Shown in pieces: positions 8,397 to 54,555 of a stretch of 64,000 nt of DNA. The notes under the pieces are model-generated. The model had not been told where the DNA came from, made no database searches, and was given only the letters and a program-made list of their open reading frames with translations. The stretch's first letter is position 1; every line of letters starts with the position of its first letter. This DNA is from Vibrio hippocampi (GTDB lineage Bacteria; Pseudomonadota; Gammaproteobacteria; Enterobacterales; Vibrionaceae). The stretch lies in the NCBI RefSeq assembly GCF_921292975.1, contig NZ_CAKLCM010000001.1:372001-436000 (forward strand). Reading direction: 5' to 3'. Position numbers and translations under genes: made by a program.

Positions 8397-9772
8397 AAAG
8401 ACAGTTGTTATTGATGGTTGGAATGGTTGCCTTATTGGCTTTATTGGGTATCACTCAAGCCAGTGAGCCCCGCTTGTCCATTGATGTTCAGGAAGCATCA
8501 ATTTCAGGGTTGCTTCATCAGTTAGCTCAACACAAATCTTATAACCTCGTGGTAGACCAAGATGTTGCTGGTGATATCACCGTCAATCTACAGCAGGTGA
8601 CTTGGCAGCAAGCGTTGGATACGGTGTTAAATTTGGCTCAATTGCAGGCAAAGAAGATGGGCAATACCTTATATATCGCCCCGCGCTCTCACTTTATTGA
8701 GTTACAACAACATCAACTGTCAGCCCATGAATATGCATTGCAACATACGCCTCTGACAACCGAAGTGATTGCCATCCACTATGCCGATGTCGCGGTATTG
8801 CATGAAACGTTAAATCAGCAGGGAGGCGTTGGTCTACTGTCTCAAAGGGGCAGTTTAAGATTTGATGAGCGCACCAGCAGCTTAATTATTCATGATCGCC
8901 CAGATGTGATTACGCGTTTTGAAGCGCTGGTAAAGCAACTCGATATACCGGTGGAACAGGTGCGTATTGAAGCCCGTATTGTCACGATTAATGAAGACAA
9001 CCTTGATGAGTTAGGGGTGCGTTGGGGGCTGACAAAGAGAAGAGGCGACCTTATTCTTGCACCGAATGTAGATGCTTTATATCCAGATACGTCGAGCGAA
9101 GGCGCTAACGGACAAAACTCTCCGCAATTCAATGTCAATCTTGCCGTCGCCTCAGATAACGCTGCGAGTATTGGCTTTCAACTTGGTAATTTGGGGCGTG
9201 ATTTTCTTCTTGATTTAGAGTTATCGGCACTACAAAGCGAGTCAAAGGCAGAGATCATTGCGACACCAAGGTTGCTGACCATGGATAAGCAACCTGCCTA
9301 TATTGAACAGGGGACAGAAATCCCCTATTTAGCCGCCGCATCCAGTGGCGCGACATCGGTGGAATTTAAGAAAGCCGTATTGTCATTAACGGTGACACCT
9401 CATATTACGCCTGATAAGCAGCTGATTTTAGTATTAGATATGACTCAAGATACCCAAGGAACCGTTGTTAAAACCGGGGAGGGGGAAGCGGTGGCAATTA
9501 ATACGCAAAGAATCAGTACTAGGGTATTAGTTAATAACGGTGAAACCTTGGTGCTCGGAGGCATAATTCAACAACTCACCAATCAAGGCGTCGATAAAGT
9601 CCCCTTGCTTGCGGATATTCCCGTCGTTGGTCATCTATTCAAGAGAGAATATCAACAAAGCCGAAAACAAGAGCTGCTGATATTTGTCACCCCAAACATA
9701 GTCACACCAAATACGGTCACACCAAATATAGTTACACCAAATACAGTCATATCAAGCACAGCTTCACCGTAA
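8393..9772 (+). CDS. pilQ: PilQ, type IV pilus secretin (short form)
   Basis: A 459-residue outer-membrane secretin. The start at 8393 is preferred because GGGGAAAG lies just upstream and the ATG overlaps the preceding TGA; an in-frame start 30 bases earlier would lie inside the previous gene. After a signal peptide (LLLMVGMVALLALLGITQAS) comes an STN/N0 domain (about residues 30-75), an N1 domain (about 115-180), and the secretin beta domain, including VEQVRIEARIVTI and VNNGETLVLGGI. The peptidoglycan-binding AMIN domains normal in pilus secretins are absent, as in enterobacterial HofQ. The C terminus ends in five VTPN-type repeats. Confidence 0.88.
   Translation: MKRQLLLMVGMVALLALLGITQASEPRLSIDVQEASISGLLHQLAQHKSYNLVVDQDVAGDITVNLQQVTWQQALDTVLNLAQLQAKKMGNTLYIAPRSHFIELQQHQLSAHEYALQHTPLTTEVIAIHYADVAVLHETLNQQGGVGLLSQRGSLRFDERTSSLIIHDRPDVITRFEALVKQLDIPVEQVRIEARIVTINEDNLDELGVRWGLTKRRGDLILAPNVDALYPDTSSEGANGQNSPQFNVNLAVASDNAASIGFQLGNLGRDFLLDLELSALQSESKAEIIATPRLLTMDKQPAYIEQGTEIPYLAAASSGATSVEFKKAVLSLTVTPHITPDKQLILVLDMTQDTQGTVVKTGEGEAVAINTQRISTRVLVNNGETLVLGGIIQQLTNQGVDKVPLLADIPVVGHLFKREYQQSRKQELLIFVTPNIVTPNTVTPNIVTPNTVISSTASP
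9686..9760 (+). repeat. 15-bp tandem repeat, five units, inside the pilQ 3' end
   Basis: Five consecutive 15-base units (9686, 9701, 9716, 9731, 9746) based on GTCACACCAAATACA. Units 2 and 3 differ only in their last two bases; the first and last units are the most diverged. In frame they encode VTPNI, VTPNT, VTPNI, VTPNT, VISST, giving a hydrophilic Thr/Pro/Asn tail. Units of a multiple of three can expand or contract without breaking the frame. Confidence 0.95.
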
Positions 9773-39311: not shown

Positions 39312-40397
39312 ATGAGTTATATGAAAGCGGCCACCGCACATATTAATTTATCTGCGTTGTCTCATAACTTGCAGCGCATCAAACAAGAAGCGCCGAACAG
39401 CAAAGTCATGGCGGTGGTAAAAGCCAATGGTTATGGTCATGGTCTGAATACGATCGCTAAACATGCCACTCAGGCGGATGGTTTTGGCGTCGCTCGCATT
39501 GAGGAAGCTCTGCAACTGCGTATGACAGGGATTGTGAAGTCAATTTTGCTACTGGAAGGCTTCTATTCTGCTAACGATTTGCCTATCTTGGTGACCAACA
39601 ATATCCAAACAGTGATTCATTGTGTTGAGCAGCTTGAAGCGCTTGAACAGGCTGAACTTGATGTCCCCGTTGTTGTCTGGTTAAAGATTGACAGCGGTAT
39701 GCACCGCCTTGGCATCCGTGAAGAGCAGTACACCGAGTTTGTAGAGCGCCTAAACCGTTGCCCGAACGTGGCGAAACCTCTGCGTTATATGAGCCACTTT
39801 GGTAGTGCTGATGAATTAGATAATTCAGTCACCAATGAACAAATTGCCTTGTTTGAAAGATTGACCTCACAGCAAAATGGCGAGCGTTCCATGGCGGCAT
39901 CAGCTGGCTTTTTGGCATGGCCGATGAGTCATTACGATTGGATTCGACCTGGTATTATCATGTATGGCGTGTCCCCATTTGTGGAGAAAAATGCCCAAGA
40001 TCTGGGATATCAGCCAGTAATGACGCTAAAGTCGCATCTTATTGCTGTGCGTGAGGTAAAAAAAGGCGAAAGTGTTGGTTACGGTGGCATTTGGACCAGC
40101 GAGCGAGACACTAAAGTGGGTGTTATCGCCATTGGTTATGGTGATGGCTACCCAAGAACGGCACCTAATGGCACGCCAGTGTTAGTGAATGGTCGCATTG
40201 TGCCTATCGCTGGGCGAGTCTCCATGGATATGCTGACCGTCGACCTTGGACCGGATGCAGTAGATAAAGTCGGTGATGAAGCGACGCTTTGGGGCGAGGC
40301 ACTTCCCGCAGAGCAAGTGGCTCACTATATCGGCACCATCGCATACGAATTGGTGACTAAGCTGACGTCTCGTGTCGAGATGTGTTATCACCAGTAA
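39312..40397 (+). CDS. alr: Alanine racemase
   Basis: A 361-residue fold-type III PLP enzyme making D-alanine for peptidoglycan. The PLP lysine lies in MAVVKANGYGHG (about residue 37), the catalytic tyrosine region is VGYGGIWTSERDTKVGVIAIGYGDGYPR, and GRVSMDML is present. Two in-frame ATGs, 39312 and 39321, are possible; the first has the better upstream spacing (GGGCAG). Coupled to dnaB. Confidence 0.96.
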   Translation: MSYMKAATAHINLSALSHNLQRIKQEAPNSKVMAVVKANGYGHGLNTIAKHATQADGFGVARIEEALQLRMTGIVKSILLLEGFYSANDLPILVTNNIQTVIHCVEQLEALEQAELDVPVVVWLKIDSGMHRLGIREEQYTEFVERLNRCPNVAKPLRYMSHFGSADELDNSVTNEQIALFERLTSQQNGERSMAASAGFLAWPMSHYDWIRPGIIMYGVSPFVEKNAQDLGYQPVMTLKSHLIAVREVKKGESVGYGGIWTSERDTKVGVIAIGYGDGYPRTAPNGTPVLVNGRIVPIAGRVSMDMLTVDLGPDAVDKVGDEATLWGEALPAEQVAHYIGTIAYELVTKLTSRVEMCYHQ

Positions 40398-40444: not shown

Positions 40445-40874
40445 TCCCTCTGTAGCATTCTCCTTGTAGCATCGCGATGACTTGGCGTTCACCCCCATGA
40501 TTTCTATGCTCACCCAGATAAATCCCCTGCCAAGTCCCTAAAGCCAAGCGTCCATTGATAATAGGTATGGTTATGTTAACGCCTAAGAGTGAGCTTTTGA
40601 TATGAGCGGGCATATCATCCCAACCCTCATAGGTATGTCGGTAATAAGGCGCATTCTCCGGCACAAAGTGATTAAAGTGCGCTTCCATATCCTGACGCAC
40701 GGTAGGATCGGCATTTTCATTCAGTGTTAAGCTTGCAGAAGTGTGCTGCATAAAAAGATGCAGCATGCCACAACGATAGTCTTCAATCTGTGGTAACTGC
40801 TTTACCACCTCTGATGTGATGAGATGGAAGCCTCGTGTATACTGTTGAAAGTATAGGGTTTGCTGTTGCCACAT
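40440..40874 (-). CDS. yjbQ: YjbQ (UPF0047) family protein
   Basis: A 144-residue UPF0047 protein. Conserved [19 protein letters not shown], the histidine-rich [15 protein letters not shown] and [20 protein letters not shown] segments form the family's metal-binding pocket. E. coli YjbQ has weak thiamine-phosphate synthase activity; its main role is not settled. Normal length. Convergent with alr. Confidence 0.92.
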
Positions 40875-42973: not shown

Positions 42974-43459
42974 CTAGCGAGCTTTTGGCAGCACCACGAC
43001 TTGCGTCTTGGCCCAAATATCATGAAAGCCACGCTTTTGTGGATCAAGGGGCACCAGTAAGTTAGCGAGACCAAAGGCTGAGGTAGCAATACGAATGAGT
43101 GCTTGAGTGGTGCTGATTCGTCCACCTTGCTCGTTTTGCAATTCAAGTTTCCATGCTCGCATGCCAAGAGTTTGTCCGGCTCTTACCCAGAAAAAAGTGA
43201 GAAAACCAATCCAGACAATGGCAAGGTAAGCAGTATAAATCGGTCCCCAGAAAGGATGAGATGTTAGAAAGTCGCCCACATCGGTATAGGGAGCGTAGCT
43301 TATTACTCCCGATGCAACCAAGGCTTGCAGTAAAGCGACAACCACACCAGCGGCCATCATAACCACCGCAGCAATAATGAAACTATCATAGACAAAAGCC
43401 GCCAAACGTCGAATAAGACCAGCAGGAGGAAGAGATTGTGCGTTCATGGAATCACTCAT
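42974..43459 (-). CDS. RDD family inner-membrane protein
   Basis: A 161-residue protein with the RDD-family pattern: basic-Asp pair in RRLAAFVYDSFII (residues 17-29), three hydrophobic segments (about 24-50, 77-95, 120-140) and the conserved GQTLGMRAWKLEL and KRGFHDIWAKTQVV. Function not established; distant relatives have been linked to ion homeostasis. Upstream on the other strand is tRNA-Leu. Confidence 0.88.
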   Translation of the reverse strand: MSDSMNAQSLPPAGLIRRLAAFVYDSFIIAAVVMMAAGVVVALLQALVASGVISYAPYTDVGDFLTSHPFWGPIYTAYLAIVWIGFLTFFWVRAGQTLGMRAWKLELQNEQGGRISTTQALIRIATSAFGLANLLVPLDPQKRGFHDIWAKTQVVVLPKAR

Positions 43460-43637: not shown

Positions 43638-43722
43638 GCCGGTGTGGTGAAATTGGTATACACGACGGATTCAAAATCCGTTGCCTTCGGGCGTGGCGGT
43701 TCAAGTCCGCCCACCGGTACCA
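43638..43722 (+). tRNA. tRNA-Leu (anticodon CAA)
   Basis: An 85-base tRNA with the long variable arm of class II tRNAs (TGCCTTCGGGCGT region), anticodon stem ACGGA / TCCGT around TTCAAAA, so anticodon CAA reading UUG. The T-loop is GGTTCAAGTCC, and CCA is encoded. The acceptor stem GCCGGTG / CACCGGT ends with a G1-T72 wobble pair. A terminator follows 10 bases later, so it is a single-gene transcript. Confidence 0.96.
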
Positions 43723-52061: not shown

Positions 52062-52693
52062 TTTTGGTATTCTCACATTCGTTGAAATATGCGCACATAA
52101 TATCCAGCGCTTTTTTTATTTGTAGTATTATATTTTCAATGTGTGATGCTATTTTGAATATTGGAAAATAAATAAATGTTGGGTAATTGTTTCGATATGT
52201 GCTGATGTGTGTATATGTCATTTAAAACAGTTACTTATGCTTGTTGTTGGTACTTTAATTTAGAGATTAAAAGGTTTTTTATCCATAGGATAAATATAAT
52301 TGAATTTACTTTTTATTAATTATTGAAAAGCGTTTGTTGCTGGGTGTTTTGTGGTTATTTCTAAGGGCTGGAATGTATTGTTAATTAATTTTCTTGGCTT
52401 TTTACTACTCAATGTTGTTTATAAATTGAGCGTCTAAAATTAAATATTTGTTCTTTTGTGTTACAAAAGAAAGAGAATAGTGAAGTTTGCATTTTGAGAG
52501 TGTTGGCGGGATAACTAAGAGCATTGAGGTCACTTGGGTATAGAGCGTGGGGCTCTCGAAATTGTCCTGTTAAAACCGCCTTGTTTGGGCTGTGTGACAG
52601 TTTTTCTCAGAATAATGCGTAGGATGTAGGTCTGTGATTTGTTTCTGGCATATTGAAACGCTAGAATCACAGGATACAGATAGGAGATTGACT
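52062..52693. other. AT-rich gap between the symporter and replication-like genes
   Basis: A 632-base gap between divergent genes, very AT-rich in its first 450 bases. It contains a one-armed copy of the dispersed palindrome (52521-52542) followed by a small AGAGC / GCTCT hairpin. No credible gene is seen; promoters for both neighbours must lie here. Confidence 0.6.
52521..52542. repeat. Dispersed palindromic element, copy 3 (single arm)
   Basis: GCATTGAGGTCACTTGGGTATA matches the right arm of copies 1 and 2 apart from a two-base deletion and one or two substitutions. The left arm is not present upstream, so this is a remnant. Confidence 0.75.
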
Positions 52694-53653
52694 GTGAGCG
52701 CAAAGTTTACCCATATTGCTTGGCAACAAACTCATATAGAGGCCAATGAAAAGCTAGTATTACTCAAATTGGCCGATTTATCGGGTCATGATGGTTCTGT
52801 AGCGATTTCATTAAAAGAGATAGCCGCTGAATGCTTGATGGGAGAGTTTGCTTTAGCTGATATGTTGACCGCTCTTGCCAACAAGGGATTAGTGCACAAA
52901 GTTCGAACGGATAATCACGTTAAGCCTCAGGTCCATCACTTGCGCTTAACGATAGTGGAGTCGAATCAACTACCGGTTATCGAGACTTCAGCACCAAAAG
53001 ATCAGCCTGAGCCACAAGTCACGACAATGCAAAACTCCAATGCACCTGGCTGGTCTTTTCAAACCTTTGATCTTTATAAAGTGCCTCCTCATTGCCGTGA
53101 TGTGGTTTGGCAAAACTTTGCACGACAAAATGGCGTCACAACCACCAATATTAATCGACTAGCGCGGCAGCTAGAGGATTGGTTGGAGTTTGCTAAGCGT
53201 TCAGGTCAGTTACAAGAGCTGATAGGTGAACCGAAAGTGGCTAACCATTCGAGTAACCATGCGAGTAACAAGTCGAATAAGAAGTCATCACCACAGATGC
53301 CAGAGTCCAGTCAAAGCAGTCAGTATATTTCGACTCATGAGCTTAATGAGTTCGCGATACCCGATTGGGCGATGCAGACCATCACTTTTTCTCGTTTAGA
53401 GGTCGACCCCAAGCTGTTTTGGGAAAAATTTGTGGTCTATTACAAAGCGCGTGCGAATGAATTTACCACTATTAATCAAATATTAAATAAATTACGCTTG
53501 TGGATTGTTAATGAAAAACAAGCGGAAGACAGACGTAAACAGTCAGAAGAGCGTCGTCGTCAATCGTATCAGGGAAATCCATCGCAGGATGTCAGTCCAT
53601 CGGAAGAGTTCAGAGAGTTCTTGCGTGGTCAGGGTAAGAACCCTAACTTTTAA
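52694..53653 (+). CDS. Replication-initiator/DnaT-like protein with winged helix
   Basis: A 319-residue protein starting with GTG at 52694, five bases after a strong TAGGAGAT. Residues 1-75 resemble a winged helix of the phage O-protein/DnaD type (EANEKLVLLKLADLSGHDGS; ISLKEIAAECLMGEFALADMLTALANKGLVHKV). Two later helical modules follow: about 125-185 (FDLYKVPPHCRDVVWQNFARQNGV...LEDWLEFAKR) and about 235-290 (IPDWAMQTITF; FWEKFVVYYKARANEFTTINQILNKLRLWI), the latter like DnaT-type ssDNA-binding modules. A Ser/Asn/Lys-rich linker joins them; the C terminus is charged. Assignment is by pattern only. The next gene starts 25 bases downstream. Confidence 0.6.
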   Translation: MSAKFTHIAWQQTHIEANEKLVLLKLADLSGHDGSVAISLKEIAAECLMGEFALADMLTALANKGLVHKVRTDNHVKPQVHHLRLTIVESNQLPVIETSAPKDQPEPQVTTMQNSNAPGWSFQTFDLYKVPPHCRDVVWQNFARQNGVTTTNINRLARQLEDWLEFAKRSGQLQELIGEPKVANHSSNHASNKSNKKSSPQMPESSQSSQYISTHELNEFAIPDWAMQTITFSRLEVDPKLFWEKFVVYYKARANEFTTINQILNKLRLWIVNEKQAEDRRKQSEERRRQSYQGNPSQDVSPSEEFREFLRGQGKNPNF

Positions 53654-53678
53654 TTCATTGTTCGTGAGGTAATGGTGT

Positions 53679-54488
53679 ATGAGCAACAGTAACAAGCCTA
53701 AAAATCTCGACTTCGGTGCAATGGAGCAGAAGTTGAGAAAAATGGGGGTGAACAGTAATCTGGACCACCTCAAAAGAACGCAATCGAATTCAGAAGTGAG
53801 TCCGCCCCAAACGCCGTCTAGTCAAGTGCCGGCAACGCAAGAGCAGCAAATAAAGCCGCAACAAATAAAAGAGCAACAAACACAACTGATGGCGGCTCAG
53901 CAGTCAATTGCTACAACCAATCAAGAAAATGAACGTGCCCCAAGCGATTGGTGTAACTATATTTTTGGCACGCTGCTTAGTATCTATGAATCGACATGGA
54001 TCAAGTCTTATGGTCGCCGTCCAACGGGTCGTTTTCTCGATTTTGCCGATAGTGTCACGGAAGCTGAATTGATGCGAATCATGCAACACTGCCGTGAGCG
54101 ATTACAAGCGGGGGAGAAGTGGCCGCCGATCATGGGTGAATTGACGCTGTTAAAGAATCAGCCCACGGAGTCGGAATTAGCAGAATCATTCAACCGAGTT
54201 TCAGCCAAAGATCCGCAGAACCAGATTGAAAAATGGATCATGCAAAATAAGGGCTATGAACTGCGTCGCCTGCCACAGTCAATGATCAACAAGCGTTTTA
54301 AAGAGTTCTATTTGGAAGCGCAAAGTTTGCAAGAGAAAGGCAAGTTAGTCACTGAACCGCCAAAGGCGTTGGCTCAGTATTCTGTGAAGAACCTTGTCGA
54401 TGTGAAGCGTGAGGAATACCAGCGTAAGCATGGTGGTGAATTAGACCCAAGAATACAGGCGATTCTCGATAGTAAAAAAGAGAGCTAA
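53679..54488 (+). CDS. Lambda P-like helicase-loader candidate
   Basis: A 269-residue protein. The first 85 residues are a low-complexity Gln/Ser/Thr-rich linker. Residues about 88-160 (WCNYIFGTLLSIYESTWI; VTEAELMRIMQHCRERLQAG; EKWPPIMGELTLL) follow the pattern of phage replication protein P domains: a helix with 'L..IYG..W', a segment like 'W...L....I..G...CR', and 'WPP...EF..L'. The C-terminal part is basic and helical (MINKRFKEFYLEAQSL). Lambda P loads DnaB at the phage origin. Function here is inferred from similarity and from its place after an O/DnaT-like gene. RBS GAGG; terminator after the gene. Confidence 0.55.
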   Translation: MSNSNKPKNLDFGAMEQKLRKMGVNSNLDHLKRTQSNSEVSPPQTPSSQVPATQEQQIKPQQIKEQQTQLMAAQQSIATTNQENERAPSDWCNYIFGTLLSIYESTWIKSYGRRPTGRFLDFADSVTEAELMRIMQHCRERLQAGEKWPPIMGELTLLKNQPTESELAESFNRVSAKDPQNQIEKWIMQNKGYELRRLPQSMINKRFKEFYLEAQSLQEKGKLVTEPPKALAQYSVKNLVDVKREEYQRKHGGELDPRIQAILDSKKES

Positions 54489-54524: not shown

Positions 54525-54555
54525 AAAAAAGAGTGCTTGGATAGCACTCTTTTTT
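54525..54555. terminator. Terminator after the replication-like operon
   Basis: 13-bp perfect stem AAAAAAGAGTGCT / AGCACTCTTTTTT with loop TGGAT, between convergent genes; usable in both directions. Confidence 0.92.

Follow-up and report, generated by a model that had tools for sequence, protein, structure and literature searches.

Helicase loaders of phage and bacterial origin

The O protein of phage lambda binds its own iterons, and in Escherichia coli the loader gene dnaC shares an operon with dnaT, a small gene of adaptor type. DopC/DopE, a pair domesticated from lambda O/P, is said to have been described by Brezellec and colleagues in 2017 for other bacterial orders, and Tominaga and colleagues in 2024 reportedly named two viral loader genes of Vibrionaceae, vdhL1 and vdhL2, stimulated DnaB in vitro with a V. 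harveyi and a V. ezurae protein, the loader proteins being tested alone, and counted more than 20 replacements. The present analysis concerns two adjacent genes of Vibrio hippocampi, here termed A (O-like) and B (lambda-P-like), which lie in a 64,000-nucleotide stretch of contig NZ_CAKLCM010000001.1 (positions 372,001 to 436,000; hereafter the window) and are very probably a phage-derived, domesticated helicase-loading module in the place of the loader DciA.

52694..53653, + strand: gene A (O-like protein), GTG start, 319 aa, from the open reading frame (ORF) call
53679..54488, + strand: gene B (lambda-P-like helicase loader), ATG start, 269 aa, from the ORF call

Viral helicase loaders replacing DciA in Vibrionaceae are, by its title, the topic of Tominaga et al. 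(2024, PNAS, doi 10.1073/pnas.2317954121), a paper cited in PMC12547741, and an excerpt of PMC12699329, which has three authors in common with it, states that unannotated genes frequent in loader-lacking genomes “work as helicase loaders.” In other sources, dnaC is given a phage origin and the Cellvibrionales are named as being without both loaders (PMC5109545), DopE is listed as a helicase-loader family, DciA, DnaC, and lambda P are all mapped to the linker-helix/docking-helix module of DnaB (PMC9912922), and five copies of lambda P are described as opening the DnaB ring into a spiral (PMC6391071). The swap of DciA for a phage loader in Vibrionaceae is already known; B comes from the same bacterial family, likewise occurs where DciA and DnaC are absent, and has phage relatives, and it is almost certainly one of these viral loaders. 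A B homolog with 52% identity and an adjoining A was found in V. harveyi NBRC 15634, V. harveyi being reportedly the species whose VdhL1 was tested. The companion gene A, an O/P pair in Vibrio, and a tRNA-Leu route were not found in the literature searched, which excluded the key papers (Tominaga 2024, Brezellec 2017).

The locus resembles each of the closest systems in some respects. As in lambda, an O-type gene precedes a P-type gene, and the profile similarity extends across both halves of P, but lambda O has four iterons and the A of the window none, and B, unlike lambda P, carries an additional motif at its N terminus and an extended linker modeled with low confidence. Like the E. coli DnaT-DnaC system, the locus combines an adaptor-type gene with a phage-derived loader gene in bacteria that lack DciA, but B has no IstB/DnaC-type AAA+ match and A no DnaT profile match. 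DopC/DopE is reportedly also a lambda O/P-derived pair in bacteria without DciA and DnaC, although in other orders. DciA itself would share with B the role of loading DnaB; the two have no sequence relation and are mutually exclusive.

Mutual exclusion of the gene pair and DciA

In a survey of 150 Vibrionaceae genomes, the DciA family was matched at an E-value of 0.001 or better in 119 (118 of them above the family cut-off), leaving 31 without a match, the genome of the window included. Two B profiles each matched 31 genomes, with a union of 33, such that B was present in all 31 DciA-lacking genomes but in only two of the 119 that hold DciA; the corresponding Fisher p-value of 4e-30 is naive, ignores kinship, and should not stand alone. 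Both DciA-holding exceptions (G045 and G066) were retained in all counts: in G066 the B match has an O-like gene next to it and terminase genes in the surrounding region (locus L102), and in G045 A, B, and a third gene lie behind a phage-type integrase (L109). Gene A adjoins B in 31 of 31 DciA-lacking genomes, 30 by profile match and one (G002) by clustering. The A profile itself matched 42 of the 150 genomes, namely 30 of the 31 lacking DciA, the two exceptions, and 10 more that hold DciA, where the matches were weak (E-value 5e-7 or worse); the A profile alone is thus not specific, and the exclusion statement rests on B. In eight of the 10 further DciA-holding genomes (G006, G007, G023, G034, G039, G053, G097, and G137), weak O-like matches occur ∼1 kb from a DnaC-type AAA+ match, probably representing prophage replication modules of another loader type.

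The usual place of dciA in relatives is antisense between lpxC and secA. Among the 30 genomes whose regions were read, all six DciA-holding controls had dciA in this interval, which spans 822–1009 bp, whereas no tblastn match to dciA at an E-value of 1 was obtained in the region of the 24 DciA-lacking genomes; the interval without dciA measured 299–565 bp in 23 of these 24, including 445 bp in the genome of the window, and the sequence read in G002 did not extend to the downstream gene. Searches of the genome of the window for dciA and dnaT, as the initial annotation had proposed, found neither. The single match to PF01695 (DnaC-type) was a 473-aa ORF away from the pair, which we take for DnaA, and no DnaC-type gene was found in this search (17 of 54 candidates scored). 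The initial annotation had assumed that DciA was present, with the pair as an additional or alternative system; with dciA missing, the genome comparisons support replacement of DciA by the pair and not an addition to it.

The exclusion was also examined on a tree of FtsZ and LpxC from 60 genomes (24 of the 31 lacking DciA and 36 of the 119 holding it). The module/DciA state changes eight times on this tree, and well-supported branches force at least six changes. Among phylogenetically independent pairs, the module was opposite to DciA in 5.7 of six on average and never changed in the same direction (sign test, median p 0.031, range 0.031–0.0625). Because DciA was detected in 13 of 13 genera, the changes are read as losses. 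The closest contrast is that between G070, with the module and no DciA, and G020, with DciA (fork support 84%), two close relatives that offer a direct comparison of module and DciA.

The pair is not specific to this strain: 27 B and 24 A homologs, the window's own counted in, were obtained from protein databases, and B occurs at 11 loci of named genomes as well as in the 33 surveyed genomes. When the search with the B profile was extended to the class, 273 further genomes yielded three weak matches. The reduced 2.1-Mb genome of G002 (L100), probably that of a symbiont, lacks DciA and keeps the whole module of A, B, and third gene; its B protein resembles an entry of Candidatus Enterovibrio altilux.

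Kinship of protein B to lambda P

Sequence kinship between B and lambda P was found at profile level, via intermediate phage proteins. B matched PHROG 32663, a family without functional label (E-value 2.4e-33), whose members in Vibrio phages are located after O-like or initiator-type genes; a phage relative of B in turn matched PHROG 109, “P-like helicase loader” (2.2e-4), and, at 7e-12, the Citrobacter phage Chris1 protein labeled “DNA replication protein P.” With a profile of 25 B proteins, the Chris1 protein was recovered at 4.7e-11 and that of Enterobacteria phage PPompW at 2.6e-10, compared with 0.014 for the best of 5000 decoys; a nine-protein lambda-P-type profile recovered the Chris1 protein at 1.5e-15 and the PPompW protein at 1e-19 (best decoy, 0.0016). 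The alignment of B to both proteins falls in a domain with a W-P-P motif. With six Vibrio phage proteins added on the B side and Chris1 and PPompW on the lambda-P side, the extended profiles aligned over 163 columns at 7.8e-11, versus 0.3–0.81 for five column shuffles; when lambda P was aligned directly by hhalign with B or with a single phage relative, without intermediates, the signal was weak.

53694..53771, + strand: B residues 6–31, conserved N-terminal motif (alignment of 22 homologs)
53940..54167, + strand: B residues 88–163, domain common to lambda-P-type proteins, with the W-P-P motif (alignment and profile matches)

In the 22 aligned homologs, P7, D11, F12, L19, G23, H30, and L31 of the N-terminal motif are invariant, as are W148, P149, P150, M152, G153, E154, and L155, which bears out the “KWPPIMGEL” motif singled out in the initial annotation; residues 33–85 form a linker with a predicted local distance difference test score (pLDDT) under 50. 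When the B model, of moderate confidence, was compared with 65 structural chains, lambda P in DnaB complexes ranked first and second with low Z-scores (5.2 and 4.1). A Foldseek search with the B model returned nothing significant, PDB sequence searches with A and B gave no meaningful match, and no curated Pfam or NCBIfam model, those for P and DnaC included, matched B above cut-off. The suggestion that B is lambda P-like is supported by the transitive profile link, with lambda P ranking first among structures although at low Z.

Protein A, an O-like partner

A matched three phage families, PHROG 391 (“replication initiation O-like,” E-value 2.7e-11), PHROG 270 (5.6e-10), and PHROG 1032 (3.4e-9), and the P-like gene B follows directly 3′. 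Its structure model (mean pLDDT 74) consists of an N-terminal winged helix followed by helical segments.

52694..52957, + strand: A residues 1–88, predicted winged-helix domain (model, Foldseek)
53336..53572, + strand: A residues 215–293, helical C-terminal domain, possibly DnaT-like (model, profile comparison)
53591..53650, + strand: A residues 300–319, conserved C-terminal tail (homolog alignment)

The top Foldseek match of the winged helix was 4pql_B, “N-Terminal domain of DNA binding protein” (E-value 0.017), which we take to be a plasmid initiator, and further matches included 4pt7 (“Structure of initiator”) and 5kbj (“Rep-DNA complex”); many ordinary winged-helix regulators scored alike. 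No curated Pfam or NCBIfam model, including those for O, DnaT, and DnaC, matched A above cut-off, and in a set of ten related proteins the two phage O genes were alone in passing a cut-off, that for HTH_36. The profile check proposed at the outset came out positive for A with the PHROG O-like profiles and negative for both proteins with the curated O, P, DnaT, and DnaC models.

The initial reading of A as a winged-helix initiator with a DnaT-like module held for the O-like part, whereas the DnaT likeness of the C-terminal domain is suggestive only. A comparison of domain profiles (14 DnaT domains against 23 of 27 A rows) gave P 0.0022, with ten shuffles at 0.0095–0.78, and a coarser comparison (five of the 14 DnaT sequences, the C-terminal domain of A wrongly delimited in several rows) gave P 0.16–0.21, with shuffles at 0.24–0.82 and the reversed profile at 0.3. 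PF17948, the DnaT domain, had no match in 21 A homologs and none in the genome of the window. The UniRef label “DnaT DNA-binding domain-containing protein” carried by two A homologs was not used, as it lacks Pfam backing. DnaT was found in no genome of this family (119 genomes of the order searched), which, together with the suggestive profile similarity, would fit a replication-restart system in which a DnaT-like adaptor serves a loader away from oriC. Such a role instead of oriC loading is nonetheless quite improbable, since exclusion with DciA makes the pair a stand-in for the main loader and the DciA and PF01695 searches found no other loader in the genome of the window; one module serving both oriC and restart is possible.

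In 21 close homologs of A, 15 of the 19 final residues are invariant; the tail is related in a clade with overlapping A and B genes, described below, and different in a more distant group.

Genomic context and probable arrival at tRNA-Leu(CAA)

The two ORFs lie where the initial annotation had them, and the GTG start, ribosome-binding site, and terminator that it named are present, with AGGAG 7 nt before the GTG of A and a palindrome of 13 pairs after B. The spacing between A and B in the window is 25 bp.

52682..52686, + strand: ribosome-binding site AGGAG of A, read in the sequence, 7 nt 5′ of the GTG
54525..54555, strand unassigned: palindromic terminator in the gap between B and ridA (13-pair stem, 5-nt loop, A and T runs)
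43638..43722, + strand: tRNA-Leu(CAA) by ARAGORN; the ancestral element probably entered here
42977–43447: RDD-family gene adjoining tRNA-Leu(CAA) (RDD by Pfam on the G045 copy)

A scan of the region gave three terminator-like and three promoter-like sites, not above shuffled sequence, and no Rfam family was found at the A/B locus. The pair stands alone, with a symporter gene on one side and ridA and pyrIB on the other. The housekeeping surroundings free of phage genes, as first described, were corroborated by NCBIfam, which named the five neighbors as a sodium/solute symporter, a Rid-family protein, pyrI, pyrB, and ornithine carbamoyltransferase, none of them (0/5) a phage gene.

In the window the pair lies ∼9 kb downstream of tRNA-Leu(CAA); in G035 and G143 this tRNA and the RDD gene are both found 1.3–1.6 kb away from the pair, and in G110 the tRNA is at ∼5.9 kb. 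The DciA-holding G045 has the order RDD gene, tRNA-Leu(CAA), integrase 0.56 kb on, and then A, B, and third gene. For the clade of the window, this arrangement suggests integration at tRNA-Leu followed by erosion of the element. Among 13 loci scanned for tRNAs in addition to the window, tRNA-Leu(CAA) was present in four and in the window, tRNA-Met in one, and no tRNA in eight; since tRNA-Leu(CAA) is missing near most of the scanned loci, other clades hold the pair elsewhere.

In G143 (L105; tRNA-Leu at 9171–9255), stretches of 20–44 nt matching the 3′ end of the tRNA and beyond occur in three copies before the pair, ∼115 nt apart, and could be attachment sites or scars of repeated integration; no such repeats were seen between tRNA and pair in the window, G035, G110, or G045. 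In two loci of another genus of the family (g8; L101 and L110), the pair lies between two genes that in the window are found at 40455–40874 and 39312–40388, near the tRNA-Leu locus; no tRNA was found in L101 or L110, and the site may be a hotspot shared with the window.

Signs of domestication and gene overlap

Ratios of non-synonymous to synonymous substitution rates (dN/dS) in clades other than that of the window, where dS is saturated, were 0.025–0.072 for B and 0.051–0.156 for A, with one A outlier of 0.416 at a dS of 0.012. A functionless prophage remnant might be suggested by the related modules in Vibrio phages and by the copy behind an integrase in G045, but it is a scarcely credible explanation given the low dN/dS, the open genes in the genomes read, the absence of any phage gene beside the pair in the window, and the presence of the pair in every DciA-lacking genome.

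In nine of 20 loci (L094, L095, L096, L097, L106, L107, L108, L111, and L112), the 3′ end of A and the start of B overlap out of frame by 140–143 nt, such that the same DNA encodes the conserved A tail and the conserved N-terminal motif of B. Overlaps of this type also occur in phages (110 nt in VBM1 and 122 nt in D171), while the window and three clade mates have a gap of 25–41 nt between the genes. Such overlaps would hinder loss of A, and the winged helix of A resembles many ordinary regulators. B alone could be the loader, in which case A would either ride along as a passenger or repress its own operon and be retained through coupling or overlap of the two genes. This is unlikely, as A adjoins B in all DciA-lacking genomes, including the non-overlapping clades to which the window belongs, has low dN/dS apart from the one outlier, and conserves its C-terminal tail.

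Origin iterons were not found in the A of the window (repeat-scan score 27, null mean 32.5, z −0.9), whereas the same scan recovered the four annotated iterons of lambda O (score 53, z 4.0). A z of 2.3 or more was reached by nine of 10 phage O genes versus five of 20 bacterial A genes (G100, G035, G025, G106, and G086); in our reading, the high z goes with Pro-Ala repeats in four of these five, G035 being the exception. Iteron loss is clear for the A of the window and not so for every clade. Since it has no iterons, the A of the window is better described as O-like than as a phage initiator with its own origin.

Modules of the more distant group carry, 3′ of A and B, a third gene coding for 223–234 aa. 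One copy had no NCBIfam match, and another had no Pfam match and only a weak match to PHROG 18108.

L093, 5517–6197: third gene
L098, 180–851: third gene
L099, 7323–8027: third gene
L100, 4616–5314: third gene
L101, 4151–4837: third gene
L109, 7846–8532: third gene
L110, 7661–8347: third gene

Proposed mechanism and significance

The initial proposal of a domesticated O/P pair acting as a chromosomal helicase-loading unit draws its support from the O-like profile matches of A, the transitive link of B to lambda P, the low-Z structural rank, and above all the exclusion with DciA. What the computation shows directly is the genes themselves, their kinship to phage replication proteins, the lack of dciA where it normally lies, and its exclusion with the pair over repeated changes. 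We infer that B loads the helicase in this organism and contacts DnaB, and likewise the whole of the role of A.

B would most likely bind the DnaB hexamer as lambda P does and open or hold the ring for delivery onto single-stranded DNA. A would most likely act as a recruiter, its winged helix and C-terminal domain placing the B-DnaB complex on DNA at oriC and possibly also at stalled forks. Because no iterons were found in the A of the window, A must recognize something other than iterons of its own, for which DnaA-bound or SSB-coated oriC, or forks marked by PriA, are candidates; contacts may be made by the conserved A tail and by the conserved motif at the N terminus of B. A fuller account, somewhat less likely than not, is that of an obligate two-gene module in which an O-like A that has lost its own origin would be as necessary as the loader and would link it to oriC (via DnaA) or to the restart machinery, and which in the clade of the window would descend from an integrative element at tRNA-Leu(CAA) eroded to the pair.

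Helicase loading is essential, yet vibrios have repeatedly exchanged their loader for a phage one. The window presents a clean case of this exchange, in which dciA is gone from its place and a phage-type pair stands alone in the chromosome, with the partner gene present every time.
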